A stretch of 16,132 bases of DNA from an uncultured Solobacterium sp. (GTDB lineage: Bacteria > Bacillota_I > Bacilli_A > Erysipelotrichales > Erysipelotrichaceae): the NCBI GenBank assembly GCA_905194705.1, contig CAJJTI010000031.1, positions 1-16,132 of the forward strand, read 5' to 3'. The position numbers and the translations under genes were made by a program. Shown here piece after piece: positions 3,039 to 16,130 of the stretch. Position 1 is the stretch's first letter. Each line of letters opens with the position of its first letter. The notes under the pieces were generated by a model. That model was given only the letters and a program-made list of their open reading frames with translations. It was not told the origin of the DNA and made no database searches.

Positions 3039-3053
3039 TTTCACGCTTTTTTT
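3024..3053 (+). terminator. Rho-independent terminator of the RpiR gene
   Basis: Perfect 7-bp stem AGCGTGA (3024-3030) / TCACGCT (3041-3047), 10-nt loop, then seven T (3047-3053). The left arm lies inside the last codons of the regulator gene, so the stop codon falls in the loop. It separates regulator transcription from the PTS operon downstream. Confidence 0.85.
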
Positions 3054-3080
3054 GACCAAAGTCATTTTGCGTGACCAAAG
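3053..3080 (+). promoter_or_regulatory. Candidate operator: repeated TGACCAAAG with TGAC/GTCA half-sites
   Basis: TGACCAAAG occurs twice in direct orientation (3053-3061 and 3072-3080), 19 bp start to start (about two helical turns). An inverted GTCA lies between them, giving TGAC-N4-GTCA-N7-TGAC. It lies just after the regulator's terminator and before a cre-like site, where an RpiR-type activator would be expected to bind. Assignment to this regulator is inference. Confidence 0.5.
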
Positions 3081-3082
3081 AA

Positions 3083-3096
3083 AGAAAGCGTTTTCA
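3083..3096 (+). promoter_or_regulatory. cre site (CcpA catabolite control)
   Basis: AGAAAGCGTTTTCA matches the classical catabolite-responsive element TGWAANCGNTNWCA at every specified position except the first base. It lies 68 bp upstream of the EIICB start codon, a location where CcpA-HPr(Ser-P) would repress a sugar PTS operon in a Firmicute. Confidence 0.75.
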
Positions 3097-3107
3097 AAAA
3101 AATGGTT

Positions 3108-3121
3108 AACTCAATTGAATT
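3108..3121 (+). promoter_or_regulatory. Short palindrome in the PTS operon leader
   Basis: AACTCAATTGAATT is an inverted repeat centred on the perfect octamer TCAATTGA (3111-3118). It may be a second operator or overlap the core promoter. I cannot place a convincing -35/-10 pair here: TTGAAT at 3115-3120 has only a poor partner (AATTAT, 3135-3140, at short spacing). The translation signal is clear: AAGGAG at 3150-3155, 8 nt before ATG 3164. Confidence 0.35.
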
Positions 3122-3163
3122 GGGGTAAACTCTCAATTATCCTTTAGGCAAGGAGATACGATA

Positions 3164-4726
3164 ATGAAAAAGTATAGTGAACAAATTCAACGCTTTGGAA
3201 GATCTTTACTACTTCCTATTGGTGTTATGGCACCAGTCGGATTGTTATTAGGACTTTCTGGAGCATTCACTCAATCTTACATGATTGAGCTCATCCCATT
3301 TTTGGGGAATCCTACAGTAAAACTCATATTTATGAGCATCAGACAGATTGCGGATTTAATCTTTGCGAATATCCCAATTATGTTTGCTATGGGTGTTGCA
3401 ATTGGTATGTCTAAGAAAGATAAAAGTATTGCAACTTTTGCGGCTGTAATGTCTTACTTAGTTTTCTTAGTAACAATGAACGTTTGGTTAAAAGCTACAG
3501 GACAGTTAATCACAGATGGAAGTAATATTTCTATTTATGGTCAAACGACTGTATTAGGTATCCAAACATTAAATGTCAACGTTCTTGGTGGTATTATTGC
3601 AGGTCTAGTAGCTGCTTGGGCAACTGACAAATATTATAATTTGGAACTTCCTCTAGCATTTGCATTCTTCCAAGGAAAGAAATCAGTACCATTAATTTCT
3701 ATGGGTGTATGTATTGTTATTGGCTTAATTCTTCCTTTCTTTTGGCAATATTTCATTGCTTTCTGTTCAAGTTTATCAGGCCTATTAACACATAAAATAT
3801 TAGGACCTATCTTAAGCGGATTTGTAAACAGAATGATGATTCCATTTGGTTTACACCATGTTTGGAATGCAATGCTAAGATTTACTGAAGCTGGTGGTAC
3901 TTATGTAATCAATGGTGAAACATATATTGGTTATTTAAATGCTATGAATGAAATTTTATTCAACTTAGGACCAGATAGTGAATATTGGGCAATGATGCCT
4001 GAATTAACTAGATTTGGTGCCCAAAACCAAATGGTAAGAACACTATTTGTTTTCCCTGCAATTGGTCTAGCAATGTATCAAACTGCTTATCCAGAAAACA
4101 AAGCTTTAGCTAAATCGTTAATTTTAACTTCTGTATTAACTGCTGCTTTAGGTAACGTTACAGAACCATTAGAATTTACATTCTTATTTATCGCACCGCT
4201 GCTATATTTAATTTATGCATTATTAGGAACAGTTATTTCTCTAGCTCTTTACTTTATGGGAACAGCTGTTGGTTATATTAGAGGTACAATATTTGACTTT
4301 ATTATTTTCGGTGTAATGTATAAAAACTCACATTGGATCAATATTGTTATTGTTGGTATTATCGCCTTCGTAGTTCATTACTTCTTATTCAAATGGTGGA
4401 TTGTAAAATTTGATGTTAAGACACCAGGTAGAGAGGATGCTCCAAGCAATGATAATGTATTGGTAAGAGAAAAGAGATATGGTGAAATTGCTGATATTGT
4501 AATTGAAGCATTAGGTGGACCAGAAAATATTGGTACAGTAGAGAATTGTATTACACGTTTGAGAGTTGATATTAACGATAATAAGAAGATTGATAAAGAT
4601 TTATTGATGAAATCAGGTTGTTCTGGAATTTTCTTCCCAACAACAAAACATATTCACATTGTATTTGGACCATTAGTAGAATTTGTAAGAAATGCAGTTG
4701 ATGAAAAATTAGGAAGAATAGGTTAA
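3164..4726 (+). CDS. PTS EIICB, glucose superfamily, alpha-glucoside (GlvC/MalP-like) type
   Basis: Membrane permease that imports and phosphorylates a sugar. Residues 1 to about 420 form the EIIC domain with some ten membrane segments. It carries family landmarks: FGLHHVWN, GNVTEPLEFTFLFIAP and, after the last segment, KFDVKTPGRED, closely matching the linker of the maltose permease GlvC. Residues about 440-520 form EIIB, whose phosphorylated cysteine is Cys462 in VENCITRLRVDIN. There is no EIIA domain; a free EIIA-Glc is encoded three genes later. GH4 6-phospho-glucosidase follows after 5 bp, so an alpha-linked disaccharide or alpha-glucoside is the likely substrate. Maltose is the known substrate of the nearest described type, but the NagA-like enzyme in the operon leaves room for an acylated or amino sugar. 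At 520 residues the length is normal. Confidence 0.92.
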   Translation: MKKYSEQIQRFGRSLLLPIGVMAPVGLLLGLSGAFTQSYMIELIPFLGNPTVKLIFMSIRQIADLIFANIPIMFAMGVAIGMSKKDKSIATFAAVMSYLVFLVTMNVWLKATGQLITDGSNISIYGQTTVLGIQTLNVNVLGGIIAGLVAAWATDKYYNLELPLAFAFFQGKKSVPLISMGVCIVIGLILPFFWQYFIAFCSSLSGLLTHKILGPILSGFVNRMMIPFGLHHVWNAMLRFTEAGGTYVINGETYIGYLNAMNEILFNLGPDSEYWAMMPELTRFGAQNQMVRTLFVFPAIGLAMYQTAYPENKALAKSLILTSVLTAALGNVTEPLEFTFLFIAPLLYLIYALLGTVISLALYFMGTAVGYIRGTIFDFIIFGVMYKNSHWINIVIVGIIAFVVHYFLFKWWIVKFDVKTPGREDAPSNDNVLVREKRYGEIADIVIEALGGPENIGTVENCITRLRVDINDNKKIDKDLLMKSGCSGIFFPTTKHIHIVFGPLVEFVRNAVDEKLGRIG

Positions 4727-4731
4727 TTTTT

Positions 4732-6066
4732 ATGAGAAAGCCAAATGTAATAACAATTTCTGGAGCTGGTAGTTGCAGAACACCAGCCGTAATCGGAACG
4801 ATGATGGAAATGAAAGAAAGATTTCCAGTATCAAAAGTAATTTTCTACGATCCAGATTTAGAAAGATTCAAAAAAATTGAAGATTATTGTTTATTATTAA
4901 TCAAATGCATGAGTCCTGAAACCGAAGTTGTTGTGACGGATAATATGGACGAAGCATATTGCAAGACAGATTTTGTGTTCTGCCAAATGCGAGTTGGAAA
5001 GAGTGAAATGCGCTCATATGATGAAAAAATTCCACTGAAATATGGTTTGGTAGGACAAGAAACATGTGGTCCAGGTGGTTTTGCATATGGAATGAGATCA
5101 ATTGGCGGCATGAAAGAAATGGTTGAATGTGTAAGAAAATACAGTAAAGATACATGGATTTTAAACTACACCAATCCTGCAGCTATTGTTGGTCTTGCAT
5201 TACATAGACTATTTCCAGATGACAAGAGAATTGTAAATATGTGTGACCAACCATATTCAATGATGGTAAGTTTTGCAAAAATATTAGGTGTTGATTCAAA
5301 AAAATTACATGCTAGATATTTTGGACTGAATCATTTTGGATGGTTTACAGATATCTATGATGAAGAAGGACATAACTACTTTGAACAGTTACGAGATTAT
5401 TTAGCAAACAATGATTTTAAGCCATATAATGCTGAACAAAGAACTAAGTCATGGTTAGACACATACTTAAGAGTGAATAGAATGATGAAGTGTGTTAATG
5501 AATATATTCCGAATACATACTTGCAGTATTATTTTTATTCAGATGAGATTGCTAAAGAAAGTGATCCAAACTTTACAAGAGCAGATGAAACAATGCAAAC
5601 AAGAGAAAAAGAAGTTTGGGATACTTGTGCTACAGCAATTGGTAAAAATAGCTTAGAAGGCATAAAAGTATTAACTTCTCCAGTATTTGGATCAATGATG
5701 ATAGAAGTGGCAGAATCTATTGCTTATGATTTAAATAACGAGTTTATTGTTATGGCACCGAATGATAATCTTATTCCTAACTTCTCACATGATGCAATTG
5801 TTGAGGTGGCTGGAACACTTGGTAAAGATGGAGTCCATCCAATTGCGTATGGCGATATTAAACCTTTCTATAAAGGTCTAATGGAAAATCAATATGCTTA
5901 TGAAGAATTAACATGTGAAGCTTGGATTGAACAAGATTATACAAAGGCATTGCAAGCTTTAGCTTTGAATAGAACAGTTAATAGTTTTGATAAAGCAAAA
6001 GCAGTCTTAGATGATTTAATGGAAGCAAATAAGGATTATTGGCAATTAAAGGTTAAAAAAGGTTAA
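4732..6066 (+). CDS. GH4 NAD+/Mn2+-dependent 6-phospho-glucosidase (GlvA/MalH-like)
   Basis: Cytoplasmic hydrolase that splits the phosphorylated disaccharide delivered by the PTS, using NAD+ and a divalent metal in an oxidation-elimination mechanism. The 444 residues match the length of GlvA (about 441). Seen features: N-terminal dinucleotide-binding strand with GAGS (residues 11-14); the hallmark block KYGLVGQETCGPGG with YGMRSIGG; NYTNPAAIV; metal-ligand Cys171 and neighbouring Asp172; metal-ligand His201 in LNHFGW; and the tyrosine-rich NTYLQYY. The signature C-D-M-P reported for 6-phospho-alpha-glucosidases reads C-D-Q-P here; the beta-specific enzymes have CN(V/I)P, so the Asp favours alpha specificity. 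The second glycine of the usual GGGS is Ala. It sits 5 bp after the permease and 5 bp before the NagA-like gene. Function class is secure; exact substrate is not. Confidence 0.92.
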   Translation: MRKPNVITISGAGSCRTPAVIGTMMEMKERFPVSKVIFYDPDLERFKKIEDYCLLLIKCMSPETEVVVTDNMDEAYCKTDFVFCQMRVGKSEMRSYDEKIPLKYGLVGQETCGPGGFAYGMRSIGGMKEMVECVRKYSKDTWILNYTNPAAIVGLALHRLFPDDKRIVNMCDQPYSMMVSFAKILGVDSKKLHARYFGLNHFGWFTDIYDEEGHNYFEQLRDYLANNDFKPYNAEQRTKSWLDTYLRVNRMMKCVNEYIPNTYLQYYFYSDEIAKESDPNFTRADETMQTREKEVWDTCATAIGKNSLEGIKVLTSPVFGSMMIEVAESIAYDLNNEFIVMAPNDNLIPNFSHDAIVEVAGTLGKDGVHPIAYGDIKPFYKGLMENQYAYEELTCEAWIEQDYTKALQALALNRTVNSFDKAKAVLDDLMEANKDYWQLKVKKG

Positions 6067-6071
6067 ATGAT

Positions 6072-7274
6072 ATGTATATTAAGTGTGATAAAATTTATTT
6101 TCCTAATCAAATTATTAAATCGGGATATTTGACAATTGCAGATGGTAAAGTTGGCGAAGTAGTCAAAGAAATACCAGATAGTGAAGAGTATATAGATTAT
6201 ACAGGGTATAGCATTATTCCGGGATTTATTGATCAACATCTTCATGGCTGGGGCACAGGCAGTTTTGGAAATGATAAGTCAGTTCATTCTATTAATGAAA
6301 TGAAAAAAAATCTTCCTTATGAAGGTGTTACAAGTTTCTTGGCTACAAGTGGAGCAGAACCTATTGACGATCTTGTTGAAGGGATTAAAAATGCAAGTTA
6401 TGTTGTGGACAATCAAAAAGATGATGGTGCAACTTTACTTGGTGTTCATCTTGAGGGACCATTTATTAATAAAGAATTCAAAGGTATGCAAAGAGAAGAA
6501 TGTTGCATAAATCCAGATATGGATATTATGAAACAATTCATGAATGCGCAATCGCATGAACATATTATTAAATTGATGACAATTGCTCCAGAGTTACCTG
6601 GATCATTAGAAATGATTAAGTTTTGTAAAGCAAACAATATTCAATTAAATATTGGACATAGTGCCGCAACATTTGATTGTATTAAAGAACTGAAGGAATA
6701 TGGGTTAGGTGGGGTAACACATATGTTCAGTGGTATGAAAGGGTTCCATCATAGAGAGTTAGGTGTTGCTGGAGCTGCAATGTATTTTGATGATTTGAAT
6801 TGTGAATTTGCTAAACAAACTGGAATGACAGTTAAACCAGAAGCTTTTGAAATTATTTGGAAGTTAAAAGACAAAAATAAAATTATTATGACTACTGATT
6901 GTGGCGGTATGGCATTAGCAAAAAAACAAAAATATCACTATATCAGAAAAGAAACATTCATTCCCGATGGAGAATACTTACTCATTAGAAGCGATGACGG
7001 AACGGAAAGAAGAATCAAAAAAGATTGCTATTCTGAAGTAAGAGATTTAGAGTTAAGTTATATTAAATCGATTCGTAATCTAATTAAGAATGTTCATCCA
7101 TCAATGCATGAAATATGCAAAATTACAGCGGAGAACCCTGCTAAATATATATCAGTATATGATAAAAAAGGTAGTTTAGATGCAGGTAAAGATGCGGACT
7201 TCTTGGTTGTAGATGATAATTTTGAATTGATTGCTACATACTGTATGGGTAAGCCATATATTTACGGAGAATAG
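6072..7274 (+). CDS. NagA-like amidohydrolase (divergent N-acetylglucosamine-6-phosphate deacetylase family)
   Basis: Metal-dependent TIM-barrel amidohydrolase of the NagA family. The fold and catalytic residues are present: HLH (His56/His58) after the GFIDQ strand, Glu128 in HLEGPF, His196 in GHSAA, His217 in THMFS, and Asp276 in TTDCGG. The C-terminal NPAKYISV and GKDADFLVVDD are typical. Substrate-contact positions differ from ordinary NagA: THLFNAM reads THMFSGM (Asn-Ala to Ser-Gly at 220-221), GIHVxP reads GMTVKP (His to Thr253), and the usual LAGS loop before the last helices is not recognisable. This suggests a related but different acyl-sugar phosphate, or a disaccharide derivative. 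The start at 6072 is 5 bp after the GH4 stop, with an AAGG-rich Shine-Dalgarno. It is co-transcribed with the PTS genes. Family placement is strong; calling it nagA would overstate the evidence. Confidence 0.85.
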   Translation: MYIKCDKIYFPNQIIKSGYLTIADGKVGEVVKEIPDSEEYIDYTGYSIIPGFIDQHLHGWGTGSFGNDKSVHSINEMKKNLPYEGVTSFLATSGAEPIDDLVEGIKNASYVVDNQKDDGATLLGVHLEGPFINKEFKGMQREECCINPDMDIMKQFMNAQSHEHIIKLMTIAPELPGSLEMIKFCKANNIQLNIGHSAATFDCIKELKEYGLGGVTHMFSGMKGFHHRELGVAGAAMYFDDLNCEFAKQTGMTVKPEAFEIIWKLKDKNKIIMTTDCGGMALAKKQKYHYIRKETFIPDGEYLLIRSDDGTERRIKKDCYSEVRDLELSYIKSIRNLIKNVHPSMHEICKITAENPAKYISVYDKKGSLDAGKDADFLVVDDNFELIATYCMGKPYIYGE

Positions 7275-7277
7275 AAT

Positions 7278-7757
7278 ATGTTTAAAAATTTCTTTAAACC
7301 AAAACCAACAAATTTTATTTCACCTTTTAAAGGAAAGTTAATGACTATTGAAGAAGTTCCAGATCCTGTATTCAGCGAAAAATCAATGGGTGATGGATTT
7401 GCAATAGAAATGCATGATGGTAATGTTTATGCTCCTTGTGATGGTGAAATAGTAGTGTTATTTCCAACAGGACATGCAATTGGTATTAAGTCTGTTGATC
7501 GAAATGAGTATTTACTACATCTTGGTTTAGAAACCGTAAATTATAAAGGTGAAGGTTTTCAAACATTTGTTAAAGTTGGCGATAAAGTTAAACAAGGAGA
7601 TTTATTAGCAAAAGTTGATTTGGATTTTTTTAGAACAAACAATGTATGTATGGTTAGTCCTATTATTGTGACAAATGCAAATCAAAGGAAAATTAAACTA
7701 TTAAAAAGCGGAGAAGTAGAAGCAAAAGAAAAAGATATTCTATCTATTACGGCTTAG
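7278..7757 (+). CDS. PTS EIIA, glucose type (Crr-like)
   Basis: Soluble phosphocarrier that passes phosphate from HPr to the EIIB domain. The 159-residue beta-sandwich protein keeps both family histidines: His66 in GHAIGIKS and the phosphorylated His81 in YLLHLGLETV, exactly 15 residues apart as in E. coli EIIA-Glc (75/90). Other landmarks are SPFKGKL near the N-terminus, MGDGFAIE, APCDGEIVV, GEGFQTFVKVGDKVKQGDLL and SPIIVTN. It starts 3 bp after the NagA-like stop with GGAGAA as Shine-Dalgarno. It completes the EIICB encoded upstream, which lacks its own EIIA. It is of the wrong superfamily to serve the mannose-type EIIB/EIICD encoded further right. Confidence 0.94.
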   Translation: MFKNFFKPKPTNFISPFKGKLMTIEEVPDPVFSEKSMGDGFAIEMHDGNVYAPCDGEIVVLFPTGHAIGIKSVDRNEYLLHLGLETVNYKGEGFQTFVKVGDKVKQGDLLAKVDLDFFRTNNVCMVSPIIVTNANQRKIKLLKSGEVEAKEKDILSITA

Positions 7758-7768
7758 AAGGAGTATGT

Positions 7769-8512
7769 ATGGATCATATTACAAATATTAAAGGATTAGT
7801 TAAATATAACAGAACGAAGTTAATTAAATTTATTTGCATAGTTTCTTTAATATTCTCTCTTGTTAATCTGACATTTAGTTATACAGGCGTGAGTACATTG
7901 AAGATTGTCCTATTAGCAATATTTAATTATATATGTGGAATATATTTTGCTTATTTCCTTAAAAAAGATTTGGATAAACCAAGTTTTCAGTCATTAAGTG
8001 AAATGATGAAAATATACATAAAAGATATTTTGATTATTGGATTGATTCAAATTTTACTAATTGTAATATGGATGGGATTATTAACAATATTAAGTAAATT
8101 TAAAATTGGAGTAGTTATTTTTCAACCATTAAGCATGATAGCATATGTATTATTAAATTATATGAATTTCTGTGTGATGTTTGATGTGTTTGAAGGAGAA
8201 AAAATAGAAGTATCTAGTTTCACAACTGCACTTAAAGATGTAACTAAAAATAAAAAAACGTTTGTTTATTTAATGTTAAAGATATTCTCAATTATAATCG
8301 TTGGTGGTTTAGTTGTTTATCTTGTAAATATATTTGCATATGCTCCACAAATTGATGCTACTTTAAAAGCAATGAAAAAATTTGATGATACTTTAATTAA
8401 TCCGTATTTCAGCACAAATTTAAGTAATTTTATTCAAAGTTTTGGCGCACAAATTATTTCGGGATTAATTCTAATTTGGATTGGTAATACAAGTATTGAA
8501 TTAAAACACTAG
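7769..8512 (+). CDS. Unknown multi-pass membrane protein
   Basis: I do not recognise this 247-residue protein. It has about six hydrophobic segments (roughly residues 20-39, 43-64, 85-107, 112-135, 163-186 and 222-241) with a short positively charged N-terminus and a cytoplasmic-looking KDVTKNKK stretch before the fifth segment. The general look is of small Firmicute membrane proteins of the DUF624/DUF975/YciC kind that sit in sugar operons, but no diagnostic motif supports one of them. The start at ATG 7769 is fixed by AAGGAG at 7758-7763; an out-of-frame ATG at 7765 stops after eight codons. It is the last gene of the operon, 11 bp after EIIA, and is followed by a terminator. Confidence 0.8.
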   Translation: MDHITNIKGLVKYNRTKLIKFICIVSLIFSLVNLTFSYTGVSTLKIVLLAIFNYICGIYFAYFLKKDLDKPSFQSLSEMMKIYIKDILIIGLIQILLIVIWMGLLTILSKFKIGVVIFQPLSMIAYVLLNYMNFCVMFDVFEGEKIEVSSFTTALKDVTKNKKTFVYLMLKIFSIIIVGGLVVYLVNIFAYAPQIDATLKAMKKFDDTLINPYFSTNLSNFIQSFGAQIISGLILIWIGNTSIELKH

Positions 8513-8686
8513 AAAACAAAGAAAAACTAGGGATGACCTAGTTTTTCTTATGTAATATTGTTTGCTGCACATGCCTACAGCACGTTGCGTCAGGAGTGTA
8601 CAAATCATGGAGAACTTTCTTTTGATAGAAATAGATTTTTGAAGGAGTAGATTTGTAAACGCAACTAGTTAGTTAATACTAACTCT
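8513..8686 (-). ncRNA. Candidate small regulatory RNA, about 174 nt
   Basis: The gap between the membrane-protein gene and the HxlR gene holds no credible protein gene but is highly structured. Reading leftward from a consensus promoter, the transcript would contain: a 5' hairpin (AGTTAGT/ACTAACT, plus-strand 8667-8684, 4-nt loop); a two-part stem GTTGCGT/ACGCAAC (8584-8590 with 8659-8665) and TACAAATC/GATTTGTA (8599-8606 with 8650-8657), interrupted on one side; a large loop; a hairpin formed by GCTGTA and TGCAGC (8565-8582 region); and the terminator at 8519-8549. CUCC occurs three times on the RNA strand (at 8641-8650, 8606-8615 and 8591-8598), complementary to Shine-Dalgarno sequences. 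I match it to no known RNA family; 6S, SRP and tmRNA landmarks are not seen. The RNA strand and ends are inferred. Confidence 0.5.
8519..8549 (+). terminator. Bidirectional hairpin terminator
   Basis: Stem of 13 bp (8519-8531 with 8537-8549; GAAAAACTAGG / CCTAGTTTTTC core) and a 5-nt loop. The T-rich right arm ends the PTS operon on the plus strand. Read on the minus strand it is followed by TGTTTT, so it can also end a leftward transcript, the candidate small RNA described here. Confidence 0.85.
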
Positions 8687-8692
8687 GTATAT

Positions 8693-8721
8693 AATATATC
8701 AATTAATAATTTATGTGTCAA
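8693..8721 (-). promoter_or_regulatory. Near-consensus sigma-A promoter reading leftward
   Basis: On the minus strand: TTGACA (8721-8716), 17-nt spacer, TATATT (8698-8693). The -35 is perfect and the -10 matches 5 of 6. Predicted start near 8686, directly in front of the hairpin series of the candidate small RNA. No open reading frame follows it on this strand before the terminator at 8549-8519. Confidence 0.65.
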
Positions 8722-8734
8722 TAAAATAATAGAT

Positions 8735-8768
8735 AAAAAAAGAAAGAATAGGACAAATTCTTTCTTTT
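8735..8768 (-). terminator. Terminator of the HxlR-family gene
   Basis: On the minus strand: 12-bp stem (8757-8768 with 8738-8749, AAAGAAAGAAT / ATTCTTTCTTT), 7-nt loop, followed by a T run (plus-strand A run 8735-8741). It lies 20 bp after the HxlR stop codon and just upstream of the leftward promoter at 8721. Confidence 0.75.
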
Positions 8769-8787
8769 GAGAATCTTTCGAAATATA

Positions 8788-9135
8788 TTAATTTGATTCG
8801 TTACTTTTGCCATGATAGTTTCTCTCTCCCCATTTAGAAAGAGATAATAATATTTCTTTTAATTTTTCTCCTTCTTTTGTTAGAGAATATTCAACACGAA
8901 CAATTGCACCATCATTATATGATTTGCGAGTAATAACGCCTTTTTCTTCTAACTTTTTTAGATTAGAAGATAAAACTTTTTTACTTAAGTCTTTATTTTG
9001 TCTTAACAATTCGCCGAAATGCATTGGACCATCGAAAAGGCAGAACAAAATGTCTAATTGCCATTTATGAGAATAGAAGGCAGAACATGCAAAACGTAAA
9101 CTTTCTTTCTCATTTTTTCTTTGATTTGTGTCCAT
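8788..9135 (-). CDS. HxlR-family winged-helix transcriptional regulator
   Basis: DNA-binding regulator, probably of the divergent mannose-type PTS operon. The 115 residues show the HxlR pattern: HKWQLDILFCLFDGPMHFGELLR (about 23-45), the recognition-helix region SKKVLSSNLKKLEEKGVITR (51-70), the beta-wing VRVEYSLTKEGEKL and a final amphipathic helix ending in WGERNYHG. Shine-Dalgarno AGAAAGGA lies just before the ATG on the minus strand. Cys17 lies in the helix before the HTH, and Cys32 in the first core helix; thiol switching is known for family members such as YodB and HypR, though the cysteine spacing here differs from the usual CPxxxxL motif. A TGTAA-N4-TTACA palindrome lies 27 bp before the start codon, suggesting autoregulation. 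Family call is secure; ligand unknown. Confidence 0.9.
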   Translation of the reverse strand: MDTNQRKNEKESLRFACSAFYSHKWQLDILFCLFDGPMHFGELLRQNKDLSKKVLSSNLKKLEEKGVITRKSYNDGAIVRVEYSLTKEGEKLKEILLSLSKWGERNYHGKSNESN

Positions 9136-9158
9136 TTTAGTTCCTTTCTCGGTTTCAA

Positions 9159-9175
9159 AAGTGTAATCGGTTACA
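9159..9175 (+). promoter_or_regulatory. Candidate HxlR operator O1
   Basis: TGTAATCGGTTACA (9162-9175) is a near-perfect palindrome, TGTAA-N4-TTACA. Its left end is AAGTGTAATC (9159-9168), which reappears inverted 99 bp away. It lies close upstream of the HxlR start codon, fitting autorepression. Confidence 0.55.
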
Positions 9176-9267
9176 TTTTTTAAACCGGTGAAAAAAATGT
9201 GCCTAATTGAATTACGGAAATAAAAAGGTAAAAATAAATATAGAAAAAAAACAACCTATTTAATTCT

Positions 9268-9277
9268 GATTACACTT
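9268..9277 (+). promoter_or_regulatory. Candidate HxlR operator O2 (inverted copy)
   Basis: GATTACACTT is the exact reverse complement of AAGTGTAATC in O1. It lies where the -35 region of the rightward PTS operon promoter would be, upstream of a very AT-rich stretch (9281-9297). I cannot fix a definite -35/-10 pair for that promoter. Confidence 0.5.
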
Positions 9278-9343
9278 GTTACTATTAATTATATCACTAG
9301 ATTGTTATCTGATAGTGAATGTTATTTAGAGGAGGAAAATAAA

Positions 9344-9817
9344 ATGAAAAATATTGTTTTTACAAGAATTGATGAACGCTTAATACATGGACAGGTAATC
9401 ACTTCATGGATTAAGGTGAATGACATTAATACGATTGTGGTCGTAGATGATGCTACTGCAACAAATACTTTTGCAAAAAGAATTTTATTTGCTGCTGCTC
9501 CTAAAAGTATTACTTTGAAAGTATTTAAACTTAATGAAGCAATTGAATATCTTCTAGGAGAACATGAAGAAGAAAAAATTATGTTAATGACTAAAGTGCC
9601 TCATCCAATTCTTGAACTTTTAAATGCAGGAGTTGAAATTAAAGAAGTTAATTTAGGAAATATGGGTGGTGCAGCTGGCAGAAAAAGATTTAATTTAAAT
9701 GTAAATGCCAGTGATGCAGAAGTACAAGATTTCAAAGACATTATTGCAAAAGGAACGGATATGTATGCACAGATGGTTCCAAGTGATAAAAAGATAGAAT
9801 TAACAAAACTTTTATAG
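9344..9817 (+). CDS. PTS EIIB, mannose/fructose/sorbose family
   Basis: Soluble phosphotransfer subunit that donates phosphate to the incoming sugar at the EIIC/EIID permease. The 157 residues match the family length. The phosphorylated residue is His15 in RIDERLIHGQV, the invariant family motif; further landmarks are VVVDDATATNTFAKRI, MTKVPHPILELL and NLGNMGGAAGRKRF. I chose ATG 9344 because of the strong GAGGAGG about 8 nt upstream; extending to a TTG at 9302 would add 14 unconserved residues. It is the first gene of the operon, divergent from the HxlR regulator. No EIIA-Man is encoded nearby, so phosphate must come from an EIIA elsewhere in the genome. Confidence 0.94.
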   Translation: MKNIVFTRIDERLIHGQVITSWIKVNDINTIVVVDDATATNTFAKRILFAAAPKSITLKVFKLNEAIEYLLGEHEEEKIMLMTKVPHPILELLNAGVEIKEVNLGNMGGAAGRKRFNLNVNASDAEVQDFKDIIAKGTDMYAQMVPSDKKIELTKLL

Positions 9818-9822
9818 TTTAT

Positions 9823-9867
9823 AACTCTTCTTTGTATATGCAGGGCCCGTATATATTGAAGAAAGTC
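9823..9867 (+). promoter_or_regulatory. Intercistronic hairpin between EIIB and EIICD
   Basis: TATATGC (9835-9841) pairs with GTATATA (7 bp, one G-U) around an AGGGCCC loop; TTCTT / AAGAA segments outside can extend the stem. There is no T run, so it is not a typical terminator. It may act as an mRNA processing or stability element that sets the ratio of soluble EIIB to membrane EIICD. AGGGG just before 9902 serves as the EIICD ribosome binding site. Confidence 0.35.
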
Positions 9868-9901
9868 TTATAATAATCAATTTCGACGAAAGGGGAAAAA
9901 T

Positions 9902-11500
9902 ATGTCGATATTACAAATAGTTCTAATTTCAATTTATTTTATATTCGCACAATCTACATTACCATTTGGTTCAATGGGAACTTGGGCAACAATAGATAGA
10001 CCATTAGTTGCAGGTTTAGTTGTAGGTTTGATTTTAGGTAATCCAGTTCAAGGTACGATTATTGGTGCAAGTATTAATATTATTTATTTAGGTATTATTA
10101 GTGCTGGTGGATCAATTCCTTCTGATTCAGGTATGGCTGGTATATTTGGTACAGCTTTAGCTTTAGCCGGTGGACTTGATACTTCTACAGCCTTAGCGTT
10201 AGCGGTTCCTCTAGGATTACTTGGCTCTGTAGAAAATACAGTAGTTATGACACTTCAATGTTTTTTAGTTAAAGTAATCGATAAATGGATTGATGAAGGT
10301 AAATCTAAGATGGTATTTGTAGGTGACTATGTAATACCTTATGCATTCAAATATGTTATTAGATTCATCATGTCATTTGTCATTCTATATTACGGTTCTT
10401 CTGCAATCAATTCAGTTGCGACAAGCTTAGATGGACCATATTTAAATGCATTAAATGTTATGGGTGGAATGATTCCAGCTGTAGGTCTTGGATTAATGCT
10501 TATTGCTATTTTTAAGGGCAAAGCTAGATGGTTCTTCTTCCTTGGTTTCTTAGGTGCTTCTTATTTAGGACTTGGTGCAATTCCAACAGCTTTGATATTT
10601 GGCATTATTGCAATACTTATTGCTAATTTCCAACCTGAAGATTTTGAAGCATTTAAAAATACACAAGATACAAATGAACATCAATTTAAATTGATTGATA
10701 AGAAAACTTTAGTTAAATCATGGGTAAGATGGGAAATATTCTGCGAAACATTATATAACTATGAAAGAATGCAAGGTATTGGTTTCTGTACAGGAATGAT
10801 TCCATGTCTAGAAAAGATTTATAAAGATGATAAAGAAGGTTTAATTGCAGCGATGAAACGTCATGCAATGTTCTTCAATACAGATCATAATTTTGGCGGA
10901 ATGATTCTAGGTATTTGCGTATCTATGGAAGAGCAGAAAAAGTTAGGTGAAGATATTCCAGAAGAAGCTTTCGTATCATTAAAATCTGGTTTAATGGGAC
11001 CATGTGCAGGTGTTGGTGATACCCTTTCACAAGTTGTTTTAATTCCTATTCTAATCATTATTTTCATTAACTTAGCTTTACAAGGTGCTACTTGGGCGCC
11101 TATTGCATATACAGTAATCTTTTTATTGATATTCTACGGTATTGGATATTGGATGCTATTTGTTGGTTATAAAAATGGTGGTGAAACGGTGTTCAAGATC
11201 ATGGAATCTGGAATTTTAGATAAAGTTATTGATGTTGCTAATATTCTAGGTTGTGCAGTTACTGGTGCATTATTATGCAATTATGTATCATTCTCGTGGA
11301 ATGTTGTTATGGTTCAAAATGAAGTCGAAATTTTTAACTTACAGACAGGTGTATTTGATGCCATTCTTCCTAATGCAATGCCATTATTATTAACATTAGG
11401 TGTATATGCTGCAGTTAAGAAGGGTGTTAAAGCTTCATACGTAACATTTGGAATGATGATTATTGGTTTCTTATTAGGTTTAACAGGTCTAGTAGCTTAA
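9902..11500 (+). CDS. PTS EIIC-EIID fusion, mannose family permease
   Basis: Membrane permease in which the two normally separate mannose-family subunits are joined in one 532-residue chain. Residues 1 to about 245 are EIIC-type: several membrane segments with FGSMGTWATIDRPLVAGL and the glycine-rich GIISAGGSIPSDSGMAG. After a charged linker (about 248-270), EIID begins at KKTLVKSWVRWEIFCE. It continues with NYERMQGIGFCTGMIPCL (Asn286 onward), KRHAMFFNTDHNFGG, SMEEQ and the signature LKSGLMGPCAGVGDTLSQ, then hydrophobic segments to the C-terminus. In most described systems ManY/ManZ-type proteins are two genes with the EIID N-terminus in the cytoplasm; the reading frame here is continuous with no stop or frameshift across the junction. 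No EIIA gene lies in the operon. The substrate cannot be read from sequence. Confidence 0.92.
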   Translation: MSILQIVLISIYFIFAQSTLPFGSMGTWATIDRPLVAGLVVGLILGNPVQGTIIGASINIIYLGIISAGGSIPSDSGMAGIFGTALALAGGLDTSTALALAVPLGLLGSVENTVVMTLQCFLVKVIDKWIDEGKSKMVFVGDYVIPYAFKYVIRFIMSFVILYYGSSAINSVATSLDGPYLNALNVMGGMIPAVGLGLMLIAIFKGKARWFFFLGFLGASYLGLGAIPTALIFGIIAILIANFQPEDFEAFKNTQDTNEHQFKLIDKKTLVKSWVRWEIFCETLYNYERMQGIGFCTGMIPCLEKIYKDDKEGLIAAMKRHAMFFNTDHNFGGMILGICVSMEEQKKLGEDIPEEAFVSLKSGLMGPCAGVGDTLSQVVLIPILIIIFINLALQGATWAPIAYTVIFLLIFYGIGYWMLFVGYKNGGETVFKIMESGILDKVIDVANILGCAVTGALLCNYVSFSWNVVMVQNEVEIFNLQTGVFDAILPNAMPLLLTLGVYAAVKKGVKASYVTFGMMIIGFLLGLTGLVA

Positions 11501-11506
11501 TTAGAC

Positions 11507-11971
11507 ATGGCAAAAGAATTATCAGATTATCGAACACTTGAAGAGTTAAATATACATGATTCACCACGATTCTATGTTACAAATAAACCAACAGTTATCG
11601 TGAGTGTTAGCTTAATGACGGGGGTAGGATGCATGCTCCTACCTCATGTTATGGCTAAAATACTAGGATTATTATTTATAGTTCCTTCAGTATATATTCT
11701 CTTATTTGTTAAAAATGAAAGATTGATTGAATTCTATGATGAATATTTGGTTATATATAAAAATAAGAATAGTGGAATGAAAATTCAGTATTCTTTTATT
11801 AACGACTTTACGACCAAAAGAAGTCATTATGGAACACAAGTAATATTTTTTACGATGAATAATGGTGATTATGTATATGTAGAAACATTTCAATTTAAAA
11901 GTGTTAAAAATGTATTAAATAAATATTTGAAAAATAAAGAAATAAGAAAGGATAAAACTAATGCAAATTAA
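11507..11971 (+). CDS. Small two-TM protein with PH-like cytoplasmic domain (unknown)
   Basis: I do not recognise a named family. The 154 residues have a soluble N-terminus, two adjoining hydrophobic segments (about 29-47 and 51-68), then a charged beta-rich domain (about 70-145, with ERLIEFYDEYLVIYKNKN and GDYVYVETFQFKS). That arrangement resembles bacterial PH/YcxB-like membrane proteins. It starts 6 bp after the EIICD stop with no good Shine-Dalgarno, so its translation is probably coupled to the permease. Its 3' end overlaps the VOC gene by 11 bp. Its place directly after the permease suggests a PTS accessory or anchoring role, which is inference only. Confidence 0.75.
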   Translation: MAKELSDYRTLEELNIHDSPRFYVTNKPTVIVSVSLMTGVGCMLLPHVMAKILGLLFIVPSVYILLFVKNERLIEFYDEYLVIYKNKNSGMKIQYSFINDFTTKRSHYGTQVIFFTMNNGDYVYVETFQFKSVKNVLNKYLKNKEIRKDKTNAN

Positions 11972-12341
11972 AAATGTTGGATTATTTGTAGAAGATTTAG
12001 AAGGCGCTAAAAAGTTTTTTGAAGACTATTTTGACGCAAAAATTCATGCTGTCTATAACGAAGAAGAGAATAAATTTTACTCCTATATCTTAGATTTAGA
12101 CGAAGGAGCAAATATTGAAATTATGACTAAACCTGAAATCGTTAAAGCAGAAAAAAATATTAATAGAACAGGATATTGTCATATTTGTATTAATGTCGGC
12201 AGTAAAGAAAAACTTGATGAAATTATTGCTAAATTCCATAGAGATAATTACAAAGTTTTATATGAACCAGCAACAGTAGGTGGAAAAGAAGCTAGAGCTA
12301 TTGCATTTGAAGGAAATGTTATTGAAGTACTTTACAAGTGA
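11961..12341 (+). CDS. VOC-superfamily (glyoxalase/dioxygenase fold) protein
   Basis: Small 126-residue metalloenzyme-type fold made of two beta-alpha-beta-beta-beta repeats (about 1-60 and 68-125). Second-shell motifs are clear: VGLFVEDLEGAKKFFEDYFD at the N-terminus and GYCHICINVGSKEKLDEI in the middle. Of the four usual metal-ligand positions I see Glu53, His74 and Glu122, but the first one, normally His or Gln, appears to be Asn5. The enzyme may use a different metal site, or be a lyase, isomerase or epimerase rather than a glyoxalase. AAAGGAT before ATG 11961 is the Shine-Dalgarno. The 11-bp overlap with the preceding gene places it in the operon. The reaction is unknown; the sugar-phosphate context suggests an aldehyde or keto intermediate. 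Confidence 0.85.
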   Translation: MQIKNVGLFVEDLEGAKKFFEDYFDAKIHAVYNEEENKFYSYILDLDEGANIEIMTKPEIVKAEKNINRTGYCHICINVGSKEKLDEIIAKFHRDNYKVLYEPATVGGKEARAIAFEGNVIEVLYK

Positions 12342-12350
12342 GGTATTACT

Positions 12351-13139
12351 ATGAATCTTTTTAGAAAACTGTTTGGAGATAAAAAACCAATCATCGGTAT
12401 GGTTCATTTAGCACCGTTACCAGGTTCTCCTAAATATGAAGGTGATCTTGAAGAAGTATATATCAAGGCAAAACATGATTTAGATGTATTAATGGAGGGT
12501 GGCGTAGATGCTGCTATTGTAGAAAATTTTGGCGATGTTCCTTATTCGACAAGTAATGAATTAGTTTCTTATACAGCGTTTACAAATATCTTTACAAGAT
12601 TAAAAGAAAATAGTTCTATTCCATTAGGGGTTAATGTTCAGTTTAATGATTTTAAAGCTGAATGGGCAATTGCTTATGCTTGTAATGCAGATTTTATTAG
12701 AGTTGAATGTTTTGCTGAGAATAGAATGGGCCCAAATGGAATTGTCGTGTCTTGTGGTCCTGAATTAATGAGATTAAAAGGAAAATATCCAAAAGATATC
12801 TGCTTGATTTGTGATGTACATGTAAAACATACATTTGAAATTGTATCTCAACCATTAGATTTTACGATTGAATCAATTAAAGAAGGTGGTGCTGATGCAC
12901 TAATATGTACAGGAATTTCAACTGGCAAAAGCCCAAGTATCGAAGATGTAGAAAAAATGAAAGAACTATCAGATGGTTTACCTGTAATATTGGGAAGTGG
13001 TGTTAACAGTAATACAGTAAAAGATTATTTAGCAGTAAGTGATGGTGCTATTATTGGTTCTTATTTAAAAGAAGATGGTGTTGTTGAAAACCCTGTTTCT
13101 TTAGATAGAGTGAAGTTATTAATGGCTAATGTTAAGTAG
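12351..13139 (+). CDS. BtpA/SgcQ-family TIM-barrel protein, canonical copy
   Basis: The 262 residues match the BtpA/SgcQ family along the whole length: IIGMVHLAPLPGSP near the N-terminus, GVDAAIVENFGD, PLGVNVQFND, FIRVECF, the CDVHVKH motif (Asp155, His157, Lys159, His160), ALICTGISTG, VILGSGVNSN and the C-terminal DGAIIGSYLKEDG with NPVSLDRV. These conserved acidic, Lys and His residues cluster at strand ends, as in TIM-barrel enzymes. E. coli SgcQ lies in a PTS operon (sgc), so a link to PTS sugars is established, but no reaction is firmly assigned to the family. GTGAGG, overlapping the VOC stop codon, provides the Shine-Dalgarno. This copy keeps the whole motif set and is the better candidate for an active enzyme. 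Confidence 0.92.
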   Translation: MNLFRKLFGDKKPIIGMVHLAPLPGSPKYEGDLEEVYIKAKHDLDVLMEGGVDAAIVENFGDVPYSTSNELVSYTAFTNIFTRLKENSSIPLGVNVQFNDFKAEWAIAYACNADFIRVECFAENRMGPNGIVVSCGPELMRLKGKYPKDICLICDVHVKHTFEIVSQPLDFTIESIKEGGADALICTGISTGKSPSIEDVEKMKELSDGLPVILGSGVNSNTVKDYLAVSDGAIIGSYLKEDGVVENPVSLDRVKLLMANVK

Positions 13140-13149
13140 GACTAAATAT

Positions 13150-13917
13150 ATGGCTTGTAAGAAAAAAGTATGTGTTATTACAGGTGCTGCTGGTGGCATT
13201 GGTATAGAAGTGACAAGAAAGTTTTTAGAAAACGGTTATCATGTTGTAATGATGGATTTAAAAGAAGAATGCATTAAGAAAAAAATACATGATAATAACT
13301 TGGAAAATGAAGATTTATCATACTATGCAGTAAATATTACAGATGAAGAATCAGTAAAAAAAGTAATTGCTGAAATAGAAGAAGAACTGGGTGAAATTGA
13401 TGCTTTAGTTAATACTGCAGGTATTTGTGGAAAGTATGATATGACAACAAATTATTCATTTAAAAACTTTAAACAGGTATATGAAGTAAATGTATTTGGT
13501 ACATTCTTAATGATTCAAAACGTATTACCAATTATGTGCAAGCAAAAGAAAGGTGCAATTGTAAACTTTGGATCATGTTCAGGGATGAGAGGATATACGC
13601 TTGAAGTTGGTTATGGGTCTAGTAAATGGGCTGTTATCGGAATGACAGAAAATATTGCCAGTGAATACGGTAAATATGGTATTCGTGTAAATTCTGTTTC
13701 ACCAGGATGGGTAAATACTGAAATGATGAAACAAACGTTAAATGATTATAGTGATCTTGAAAAAGAAAATACAGAATCTTCAGTTGTTTATGGAGCAATT
13801 GAACGACCTGCAGAGCCAAAAGAAATTGCTGATGCTGTGTATTATTTATGCAGTGATAATGCTTCATATATCACAGGAACTAATTTAGTTGTAGATGGTG
13901 GAAAAACAATTATTTAA
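13150..13917 (+). CDS. Classical short-chain dehydrogenase/reductase
   Basis: NAD(P)-dependent oxidoreductase with a complete SDR core. The cofactor loop TGAAGGIG lies at residues 11-18, NTAG in the DALVNTAGICG strand, catalytic Ser142 in NFGSCSG, and Tyr155 and Lys159 in YGSSK. PGWVNTEM and the C-terminal YITGTNLVVDGG are typical. I chose ATG 13150 (255 residues), since GTAGGA gives normal spacing and the glycine motif then begins at residue 11; an in-frame ATG at 13129, inside the end of the first BtpA gene, is possible. An Asp follows beta-2 (MMDLKEE), which favours NAD(H) over NADP(H). Closest in look to FabG-like or sugar/polyol dehydrogenases. Lying between two BtpA genes, it probably oxidises or reduces the pathway's sugar-derived intermediate. 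Confidence 0.93.
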   Translation: MACKKKVCVITGAAGGIGIEVTRKFLENGYHVVMMDLKEECIKKKIHDNNLENEDLSYYAVNITDEESVKKVIAEIEEELGEIDALVNTAGICGKYDMTTNYSFKNFKQVYEVNVFGTFLMIQNVLPIMCKQKKGAIVNFGSCSGMRGYTLEVGYGSSKWAVIGMTENIASEYGKYGIRVNSVSPGWVNTEMMKQTLNDYSDLEKENTESSVVYGAIERPAEPKEIADAVYYLCSDNASYITGTNLVVDGGKTII

Positions 13918-13936
13918 TAAAGGAGAAATTGAAATT

Positions 13937-14725
13937 ATGAGAAACGAATTTTTTAATAAGAAAAAAGTAATTGGCATGGTTCATTTACTTCCAATGCCAA
14001 GTAATGCTTCATATAGAGGAGACAATGAAGAAATTGTGAAAGCAGCTTTAGATGATGCAAAAACACTATTGGATTGTGGTGTTGATGCAATTATGCTTGA
14101 AAATTTTAATGACTGGCCTCAATATAGTACAGAAATTCCTCTAGAATCATATTCTTTAATGCTTGCAATTGCTACAAAAATTAAAGCAATGTGTAAAGAT
14201 ACACCATTTGGGGTGAATATTGAAATGAATTGCTGGAAACAGGAATGGTTAATGGCTTATGCTGTTGGTGCTGATTTTACTAGAATTGAAGCCTTTGTTG
14301 ATAACAGAGCTGGTTCATTTGGTATGATTGAAGCATGTTCCACACAAATGATGGATATTATGAAACAATTCCCATCTAAGACTATGTTATTTACGGATGT
14401 TCATACAGCAGAAACATATGGTTTCCCTAATGTTCCAATTAACGAATTAGCACAAAATGCAATTGGTCATGAATCAAGTGCAATTATTGTTACAGAAAAT
14501 GACGATAGTAAGAAAATAACATGTGATGATGTTAGATCGATGCGTGAAACTATTGGAGATTTCCCAATTATTGTTGGTGCAGGCGTAAAAACTAACAATG
14601 TAATTGACTACTTTGAAGCTGGTGCTGATGCCGTAATTGTGGGACGTGGCTTTAAAACAGGTGATGCAGTAGATGCTACAAAAGTTAATGAATTCATGAA
14701 AGTAGTTAGAGATAAATATAATTAA
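13937..14725 (+). CDS. BtpA/SgcQ-family TIM-barrel protein, diverged paralog
   Basis: Second BtpA/SgcQ homologue, also 262 residues from ATG 13937. AAGGAG at 13920-13925 is the Shine-Dalgarno, with a slightly long 11-nt gap. An in-frame ATG at 13895 inside the SDR end would add 14 unconserved residues. Shared with the first copy: VIGMVHLLPMP, GVDAIMLENFND, FGVNIEMN, DFTRIEAF, TDVH and the ending DAVIVGRGFKTGD. Key differences: DVHVKH becomes DVHTAE (Asp154 onward), FND becomes MNC, and the TGxxTG loop becomes TENDDSK. The Lys-His pair and the phosphate-type loop are therefore lost or replaced while the barrel is intact. It may have another substrate, or form a heteromer with the first copy. 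Last gene of the operon. Confidence 0.88.
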   Translation: MRNEFFNKKKVIGMVHLLPMPSNASYRGDNEEIVKAALDDAKTLLDCGVDAIMLENFNDWPQYSTEIPLESYSLMLAIATKIKAMCKDTPFGVNIEMNCWKQEWLMAYAVGADFTRIEAFVDNRAGSFGMIEACSTQMMDIMKQFPSKTMLFTDVHTAETYGFPNVPINELAQNAIGHESSAIIVTENDDSKKITCDDVRSMRETIGDFPIIVGAGVKTNNVIDYFEAGADAVIVGRGFKTGDAVDATKVNEFMKVVRDKYN

Positions 14726-14740
14726 TCTAATTATAAAAGA

Positions 14741-14800
14741 ATAAATAATAGAACCCTTTGTAATAATGAACTTGTCGTTGTTATGAAGGGTTTTATTTAT
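14741..14800 (+). terminator. Long hairpin terminator of the BtpA/SDR operon
   Basis: Core stem AACCCTT (14752-14758) / AAGGGTT (14786-14792). It is extended outward by ATAAATA (14741-14747) / TATTTAT (14794-14800) and inward by ATAATGA / TTGTTAT with two G-U pairs. The T-rich stretch TTTTATTTA follows. The symmetry would allow it to stop the opposing minus-strand gene as well. Confidence 0.75.
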
Positions 14801-14873
14801 GATAGATTAAATTATTGCGTGGTTTTAAACAAAGGTTGTTTATAATATTTAAAAGTAATTATATATAATTGAA
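14801..14873. other. Spacer between convergent genes
   Basis: AT-rich spacer with one clean hairpin, TAAACAA/TTGTTTA (14826-14832 with 14836-14842, 3-nt loop). No T run follows on either strand, so its role as a terminator of the leftward gene is doubtful. Confidence 0.3.
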
Positions 14874-16130
14874 TTATTTTCTGTTATTAACAATAACTTT
14901 TGCTAACTGTTCAATGCCCTCTGCAGTAAGTGGAAATAACAGAATATAGAATAAGATACTATACTGGCCTTTAGCTTCCCATAATAAGAAAAACAAGAAG
15001 CATCCAATAAATATTAATGGAATAAATATTTTTTCAGTTGTCATCTTTTTACGGTTGAATAATATGTAACAAAGAGCACCTAAATATATAACGTTCATTA
15101 ATATATTTTCATAAAAGATAATCAGTTGATTTATTTTTCCTGTCATAAAAGAACTAGTGAAGTGAGAATAAATGTCATTTTCTTTATCATAGGTTATCCA
15201 TAAGAATGATTGAGCTTGTGGATTACCTTTACCAAACTGTTGTGCTTTGTTTGCACTGATTGTCCAAAATCCTTGATAATCTGGATTGATATACATAGAA
15301 CAAATCTTGTCATGGTAGAAATCTAATAGTTTATGGTCATGTACAAGAGTATTTAAGTTATTTATGGTTCTTTTAATACCATCTTTTCTCATTGCATCAG
15401 TATTTGTTCCATATTGTTTATAGAGATATGGTTCATACCAGCCATTATGCCATCCAGCTCCTCTTGGACCATAAGAAGTCCCCATTACTAATGCAATTTC
15501 TTTATAAGTAGAAGTTTTCAGGTCGATGGAAGAATCTAAAGAGGATACAGTTTTATTAGCGATATCAGGAGAAAGAATAATGAATATTGTAGAAATAATA
15601 ACAATCAGTATTCTTTTGATATTTTTGGTTTGTATGAATTCGAGAATATAAAGAATGATTTCAGCAATTAGCAATATATAAGCAGTTCCTTTTAAAAGGG
15701 TTGCACATAGCAAGAATACAAATGATAGCATCATATTTCTTATCGGATTAACATGATAATGATTAAGAAAATAATAAATTCCAGCACACGTAAAAAATAA
15801 TGAGGGAATATTTGAATATAGAAACATTACATAAACTTGTAAAGATATAAATGATATGCAAAGCAAAAGCGTTATGATTGTTATCTTTTTGTTGCGACTG
15901 ATAAGAGACGATATTTTAATTAAATAATAATAAATGAGTACTAGAAAAATAACATTCACAAATTGGAATGCAATATAGTTTTTACCAAATATTAAAATTA
16001 ATAAATAGTAATACAAAACAATGGGAATCTGGAAAGGGTATTGAGAAATATAGTTCCCATATGTAAACATAGAGTAATCATGACTTTTTAAACCAACTGC
16101 AGCTTCTATTACTCTCTCACTGTCCCATGT
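14874..16130 (-). CDS. GT-C-type membrane glycosyltransferase-like protein, C-terminal part (5' end outside window)
   Basis: Large hydrophobic protein running leftward; 418 residues are visible. The frame stays open from base 16130, so the ATG at 16070 is internal: the residues before it (TWDSERVIEAAVGLKSHDYS) resemble the loop after the first helices of PMT/ArnT-like glycosyltransferases, including a DSERV motif. MFTYGNYISQYPFQIP follows. The first two-thirds has about six to seven membrane segments. A soluble stretch follows (GTSYGPRGAGWHNGWYEPYL to WITYDKE), then three more segments ending in LLWEAKGQYSILFYILLFPL. Such proteins use polyprenyl-phosphate sugars to decorate cell-surface polymers; donor and acceptor are unknown. 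It converges on the BtpA operon and shows no functional link to it. Confidence 0.75.
   Translation of the reverse strand, partial: TWDSERVIEAAVGLKSHDYSMFTYGNYISQYPFQIPIVLYYYLLILIFGKNYIAFQFVNVIFLVLIYYYLIKISSLISRNKKITIITLLLCISFISLQVYVMFLYSNIPSLFFTCAGIYYFLNHYHVNPIRNMMLSFVFLLCATLLKGTAYILLIAEIILYILEFIQTKNIKRILIVIISTIFIILSPDIANKTVSSLDSSIDLKTSTYKEIALVMGTSYGPRGAGWHNGWYEPYLYKQYGTNTDAMRKDGIKRTINNLNTLVHDHKLLDFYHDKICSMYINPDYQGFWTISANKAQQFGKGNPQAQSFLWITYDKENDIYSHFTSSFMTGKINQLIIFYENILMNVIYLGALCYILFNRKKMTTEKIFIPLIFIGCFLFFLLWEAKGQYSILFYILLFPLTAEGIEQLAKVIVNNRK

Follow-up and report, generated by a model that had tools for sequence, protein, structure and literature searches.

BtpA/SgcQ proteins form a widespread barrel family to which, to our knowledge, no reaction has been assigned, and a literature search judged by title and abstract opening found no work on their catalysis. 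In the sgc operon of Escherichia coli, SgcQ reportedly lies in a PTS cluster whose permease belongs to another family, and neither a VOC enzyme, nor an SDR, nor a second BtpA is said to accompany it. The mannose-family PTS of the dga (D-glucosaminate) and gfr (Amadori-product) operons serve amino-acid-like sugars. Among the families discussed below, glyoxalase I binds its metal by the ligands H/E/H/E, and the redox-sensing HxlR regulators of the YodB/HypR type have a Cys about 13 residues before the Trp of the KW pair.

The window, i.e., the whole analysed stretch of 16,132 nucleotides, carries a gene row in which a mannose-family PTS, with its IIB, IIC, and IID domains all present, is followed by enzymes of these families (Table 1). 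According to the ORF list and Pfam, the order after IIB is the IIC-IID fusion, a 154-aa protein, VOC, BtpA1, SDR, and BtpA2, then the terminator. With ORF starts as called, the spacers range from an 11-nt overlap to 84 nt. The compact row described in the original prediction is real, and ORFs and Pfam agree on it; the hairpin after it is terminator-like, and such sites within 8500-15000 number three, against 2.1 expected from shuffles. The predicted count of seven genes also stands, but IIC and IID are one fusion rather than two genes, and the seventh gene encodes the undescribed 154-aa protein. The HxlR gene to which the row had been linked is present and divergent, but it falls outside the predicted interval of 9344-14725. 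Since the same set recurs in three Bacillota families, the gene row is more than chance. No mannose-type EIIA was found in the window, where the EIIA seen (7278-7757) is of the glc type; ARAGORN found no tRNA there, and Rfam gave no match at gathering cut-offs.

Table 1. Features of the gene row and its divergent regulator (window coordinates)
Feature	Position	Strand	Basis
HxlR-family regulator, divergent	8788-9135	-	PF01638, 80.1 bits (cut-off 20.8)
Candidate HxlR operator GTAATCGGTTAC	9163-9174	+	one mismatch from GTWACCGGTWAC
Mannose-family PTS EIIB	9344-9817	+	PTSIIB_sorb PF03830, 151.6 bits
Fused PTS EIIC-EIID	9902-11500	+	EII-Sor PF03609, 181.6 bits, and EIID-AGA PF03613, 263.2 bits, in a single ORF
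154-aa protein, two helices, then PH-like beta domain	11507-11971	+	no family; predicted model
VOC enzyme without first metal-ligand His	11961-12341	+	Pfam Glyoxalase, 38.9 bits
BtpA1, BtpA/SgcQ barrel	12351-13139	+	PF03437, 236.6 bits; DVxVKH kept
SDR	13150-13917	+	adh_short_C2, 203.7 bits; Ser-Tyr-Lys kept
BtpA2, one-clade subfamily	13937-14725	+	PF03437, 154.7 bits; DVxVKH changed to DVHTAE
Terminator-like hairpin	14749-14795	+	hairpin scan

Another row of the window (2292-7757) consists of an RpiR-type regulator, a glc-type PTS IICB, a family 4 glycosidase, an amidohydrolase (NagA-like by eye), and EIIA-glc, and is followed by a 247-aa protein without family. It makes a second sugar operon, whose substrate may be an N-acetylated disaccharide.

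How far do the individual proteins depart from their families? IIC and IID are fused in all seven PTS loci compared (59-74% identical). The 154-aa protein has no Pfam or NCBIfam match at 1e-3, and a fold search with its predicted model (pLDDT 87.2) gave nothing with E < 1e-3, the best being PH-type domains at 5.6e-3. Its counterpart occupies the same position in loci L001, L003, and L015 (20-32% identity), and relatives (25-27%) occur in ABC-type loci but far from the block. In VOC, position 5 is N and E53, H74, and E122 are retained, and the four-ligand set of glyoxalase I is thus incomplete at its first ligand. This His is replaced by N or I in all 31 aligned rows and kept in 18 of 19 controls. 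The SDR carries an Asp after beta2 and, by the general rule, is presumably of the NAD type. Both BtpA proteins lie above the PF03437 cut-off of 30 bits; BtpA1 keeps the DVxVKH and TGxxTG motifs, as seen in the PF03437 alignment here, whereas BtpA2 keeps neither. To judge by the alignments, the sites of both VOC and BtpA2 are altered. BtpA2 forms a single clade (support 100/100), and among the best 120 of 140 matches to it identity falls from 63-98% in matches 1-91 to 32% in match 92. Its predicted barrel (pLDDT 93.5) is near ThiE, KDPG aldolase, HisF, and also MfnB in fold comparison.

Other BtpA relatives show different surroundings. A separate PF03437 clade, linked with HAD, FGGY, and ABC genes, is also without KH. 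Plasmid BtpA clusters (L074, L075, L077-L085, from Rhizobium, Pantoea, and others) have PfkB/ribokinase or FGGY kinases and ABC transporters, and some add phosphotriesterase, glutamine amidotransferase, Zn-hydrolase, TenA, or allophanate hydrolase. In L020, L057, and L060 and, by gene-row likeness, in L056 and L058, BtpA lies in a mannose-PTS row together with a TrpA-like protein; L020 adds a beta-lactamase-like gene and L057 two ADP-ribosylglycohydrolase genes. The tree label trpA denotes a Pfam match for L020, L057, and L060 and gene-row likeness for L056, L058, and L067.

A scan of contigs from 84,980 species, with one genome per species according to the collection's description, gave 21 loci, 20 of which encode BtpA2 (66-76% identity in that listing). 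The remaining one, L020, was rejected as a BtpA2 locus, its protein being a BtpA1-like relative of 40% identity. The carriers are gut and rumen bacteria; by records or tree listing, they belong to Erysipelotrichaceae, Oscillospiraceae, and Lachnospiraceae. All 18 loci whose contig reaches far enough have VOC in the row, L004 and L017, at contig ends, being left out of the VOC and BtpA1 counts. SDR is there in 17 of 19 loci (L017 left out), is missing in L007 and L008, and is placed upstream of IIB in L002 and L015 (46-49% identity). BtpA1 was found in 11 of 18 loci and is dispensable; one further locus, L002, has a remote BtpA (39%). The BtpA2 proteins of L007 and L008 are identical, and the 1.3-Mb assembly that contains L008 (G005) also has L006; L007 and L008 may therefore be one locus. 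The claim that the enzymes are conserved together in several genera would have suffered had the four never co-occurred elsewhere. They do co-occur, and 20 further BtpA2 loci in three families bear the claim out.

The system is nevertheless rare and patchy in distribution. Among 315 genomes from the order of L010, 20 match the BtpA2 alignment at 1e-60; in 13 the match is BtpA2 itself (at most 1e-130), and the other seven match only via BtpA1-like proteins. The 295 genomes drawn from the order of L005 gave one match. L013 is the type strain JC13 of Dielma fastidiosa, a cultured human-gut species, and its version of the operon includes EIIA. A Dielma genome also holds, at L073, another fused IIC-IID, with IIB, an amidohydrolase, an IF-2B-type protein, and a remote BtpA.

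The transporter itself changes between loci. In the 17 loci readable in this respect (L004, L017, and L019 left out), seven have the PTS (IIB and the IIC-IID fusion) and ten an amino-acid ABC transporter. Its genes for the solute-binding protein (SBP), permease, and ATPase precede VOC on the same strand, and the ATPase and VOC genes are 12 to 137 nt apart; in L016 only permease and ATPase are within reach of the contig end. Pfam assigns those of L010 to SBP_bac_3, BPD_transp_1, and ABC_tran, while their best NCBIfam names are parts of a cystine transporter, all below cut-off (176.8/312, 207.3/300, 317.8/406). The PTS is thus not obligatory, a point that the original prediction missed. The enzymes stand directly behind transporter genes in several genera, as expected of an uptake-linked pathway.

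We searched 15 genomes (14 holding the BtpA2 block, plus G168) with the fused IIC-IID and the SBP. The former was present at 59% identity or more in four and the latter at 72% or more in nine; no genome had both. G160, the genome of L016, whose ABC genes run off the contig end, had no SBP and no close fusion, and G168 had an SBP at 40% only. Many of the 15 also have less similar mannose-PTS and SBP proteins. The locus L018 is instructive, as it keeps the PTS where sister species have the ABC transporter: its downstream genes are those of ABC loci, and HxlR, IIB, and the fusion occupy the ABC position. In the trees its BtpA2 groups with those of the ten ABC loci (100/100), and its VOC groups with theirs (96/98) and branches outside them (93/88). 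From this context and these trees, it is most likely that one transporter was exchanged for the other in place. Comparison of the loci shows VOC, SDR, and BtpA2, often with BtpA1, as a module kept together while the transporter in front of it is of either kind.

VOC can be followed beyond the BtpA2 loci. In the 315 genomes, a VOC at least 52% identical to that of L005 occurs in 22 places, adjoined by ABC in 17, by PTS in four, and by neither in one (L104). The more distant VOC proteins of that search (37-44%) gave 19 control places, several of them on short contigs, whose neighbours were identified by BLAST with the genes of the window and of the first 21 loci as reference; none was beside ABC and one was beside a PTS-like gene (L126, where an EIIA-man-like gene adjoins VOC and IIB is about 4 kb away). 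The row may be shorter or rearranged: ABC-VOC lacks both SDR and BtpA in L100 and L101, ABC-VOC-SDR lacks BtpA2 at the same chromosomal place in L102, the order is VOC-ABC-SDR in L054 and L105 (L054 with BtpA1 nearby), and L106 has ABC, a 168-aa protein, and VOC. Divergent ABC-VOC pairs (SBP 35-43%) are carried by L054/L105 and L113/L114. Genomes of two orders encode, within the group of ABC genes that precedes VOC, a protein of 168-173 aa without a Pfam match (L106:1545-2048, L114:7685-8203).

Only L005 itself had this VOC among 394 genomes drawn from its order. Four had it among 392 from the order of L015 (L015, L113, L114, L115), with PTS in L015 and a divergent ABC in L113. In L114, a PatB C-S lyase, a cystathionine lyase/synthase-type enzyme, CysK, ABC, and VOC lie on one strand. 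L115, whose contig starts 348 nt before VOC and leaves the upstream side beyond reach, has VOC, PatB, O-acetylhomoserine sulfhydrylase, a cystathionine-type enzyme, and CysK. PatB and CysK of both loci exceed NCBIfam cut-offs. The PatB-like gene of L010, an Erysipelotrichaceae ABC locus, is below (295.6 vs 340); such genes run convergent by the ABC loci of this family and may be background synteny.

Regulation differs between loci as well. Of the loci read, the window, L001, L018, L019, and L103 have a linked HxlR gene. The palindrome GTWACCGGTWAC occurs in all four HxlR-IIB spacers, exact in L001 (two sites), L018, and L103 and, in the window, as GTAATCGGTTAC, with one mismatch and shifted. 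L103 was found after the pattern had been set. The exact pattern was present in two of 87 loci and a slightly wider one in three of 135 (L001, L018, L103), with one additional site elsewhere in L001; a first-order random model of each spacer gave an equal match in 2, 0, 0, and 0 of 1000 draws. We regard GTWACCGGTWAC/GTAATCGGTTAC as a candidate HxlR operator. Several observations count against it. Once two mismatches are allowed, the pattern is not rare in the window as a whole. The block TGCCTAATTG (window 9200-9209), common to the spacers of the window, L001, and L103 and absent in L018, follows the palindrome at 7 nt in L001 and L103 and at 25 nt, i.e., 18 nt further, in the window, where the 7-nt position holds only TAAACCGGTGAA. 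In L019, where HxlR lies beyond BtpA2, no such site was found.

Elsewhere the regulators are of the PTS type, DagR-like in L002, L005, and L015 and Mga/PRD/EIIA in L013; among the annotated neighbours of ABC-type loci, whose annotation is partial, no regulator was identified. Perfect -24/-12 sites precede the IIB ORF by 77 and 90 nt in L003 and L005, and the pattern has one more match at an unrelated place in L067. PtsI adjoins the PTS in L005, L015, and (by clustering) L003, and EIIA-man is present in L013 and L019; the L015 region likewise holds an EIIA-man-like gene. These features are those of a sugar-uptake system rather than of a stress response. L015 further encodes, within its PTS row (4559-6717), a CoA-disulfide-reductase-like protein with a rhodanese domain and a C_GCAxxG_C_C redox protein.

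What, then, does the operon do? A shared set of three to four enzymes that stands behind either a sugar or an amino-acid transporter suggests a breakdown pathway for a compound without a name so far, and we give an even chance to a substrate-inducible uptake and breakdown operon as the whole explanation. IIB and the IIC-IID fusion, with EIIA encoded elsewhere, would import and phosphorylate a sugar-like compound, while HxlR would repress the operon via GTWACCGGTWAC until an inducer is present. SDR might oxidize or reduce one carbinol with NAD(H), the altered VOC could perform a proton-transfer, isomerase, or lyase step of non-glyoxalase type, and BtpA1 and BtpA2, as barrels of phosphate-binding type, may cleave or rearrange the sugar-phosphate part. 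Because both transporters would have to serve the substrate, and VOC orthologs share rows with C-S lyase and cysteine synthase, its likeliest class is a sugar compound also bearing an amino-acid part, perhaps a cysteine conjugate. The more specific proposal of a pathway for sugar-amino acid conjugates, likeliest of cysteine (thioglycoside or thiazolidine), is unlikely as it stands; here the same VOC, SDR, and BtpA2 would serve phosphorylated versions fed by the PTS and free versions fed by ABC, with the active sites of VOC and BtpA2 rebuilt for an undescribed reaction. The uptake and breakdown reading is weakest for the ABC type: its substrate would arrive unphosphorylated, and the annotated neighbours of ABC loci include no kinase, though the barrels look phosphate-binding. 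Also against it are the absence of BtpA1 in six of 18 loci and of SDR in two of 19, the position of the L010 ABC below the cystine cut-offs, and the main ABC group, which may go back to a single swap event in one lineage, although L054/L105 and L113/L114 have divergent pairs of ABC and VOC.

A plainer account is possible, though we would not expect it: the PTS would take up some ordinary rare sugar or sugar acid, and the ABC lineage would have re-used the enzymes for another compound, with no shared substrate. BtpA relatives elsewhere do go with PTS, or with PfkB/FGGY kinases and sugar ABC transporters, and BtpA1 is present in six of seven readable PTS loci (the remote BtpA of L002 included) and absent in five of ten ABC loci. 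Yet the VOC of the window is 55-61% and its BtpA2 69-73% identical to those of ABC loci, with the same conserved positions, a small divergence for a change of substrate. In an operon for defence against electrophiles or reactive carbonyls, a reading that takes up the original prediction's guess of a reactive carbonyl intermediate, HxlR would be thiol-sensing, VOC a glyoxalase, and SDR a carbonyl reductase; this is quite unlikely. The VOC and SDR folds would suit it, as would a DJ-1/PfpI gene near ABC loci, the CoA-disulfide-reductase-like gene of L015, and the best NCBIfam matches of HxlR, which, though far below cut-off, are to the redox regulators RrpB and RrpA. The guess is weakened because HxlR is not constant, its place being taken by PTS-type regulators in L002, L005, L013, and L015. 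Moreover, the PtsI and EIIA genes of several loci indicate sugar uptake, and the first glyoxalase I ligand is missing from VOC throughout. The HxlR proteins of the window, L001, L018, and L019 share an invariant Cys eight residues before the Trp of the KW pair, and in none of the four is there a Cys about 13 residues before it. Two different kinds of input beside a single enzyme set, PatB and CysK in VOC rows, and the likeness of the barrel to biosynthetic enzymes (ThiE and MfnB among them) could also point to an operon for biosynthesis, in which a sugar phosphate is coupled to an amino acid resembling cysteine, e.g., in a low-molecular-weight thiol, each transporter supplying one input. We consider this very improbable: Pfam and NCBIfam recognised no ligase, glycosyltransferase, or ATP-using enzyme in the enzyme block itself, and the DagR-like and PRD regulators suit catabolism.

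The exchange between PTS and amino-acid ABC in so compact an operon narrows the substrate class and opens a testable way to the first reaction of a BtpA protein. The predicted HxlR operator makes the inducer screenable.

In comparison with known systems, the window resembles the sgc operon of E. coli in having a BtpA/SgcQ protein beside PTS genes. With the dga and gfr operons it shares the mannose-family PTS, and L002, L005, and L015 also a DagR-like regulator, at 346, 336, and (partial) 59 bits against a DagR cut-off of 1400; however, none of the enzymes in the operon here was recognised as belonging to dga or gfr. The ABC transporter of L010 is closest by NCBIfam name to the TcyJLN-type cystine system, below cut-off in all three parts, but differs in its linkage to VOC, SDR, and BtpA2. 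VOC has a sequence relative in the glyoxalase I/VOC superfamily, PDB 3e5d (E = 3.8e-18), and differs from glyoxalase I in having Asn or Ile for the first metal-ligand His. The sister clade of BtpA2 (97/89) is formed by BtpA proteins from mannose-PTS operons that include a TrpA-like gene (L020 and L060, and L056 by likeness of its gene row); in contrast to BtpA2, they keep DVNVKH or DINVKH and TGxxTG and have as partners the TrpA-like protein and, in L020, also a beta-lactamase-like one. The parts thus belong to known families, whereas their arrangement and the transporter exchange seem new, as neither was met in titles and abstract openings of the literature searched.
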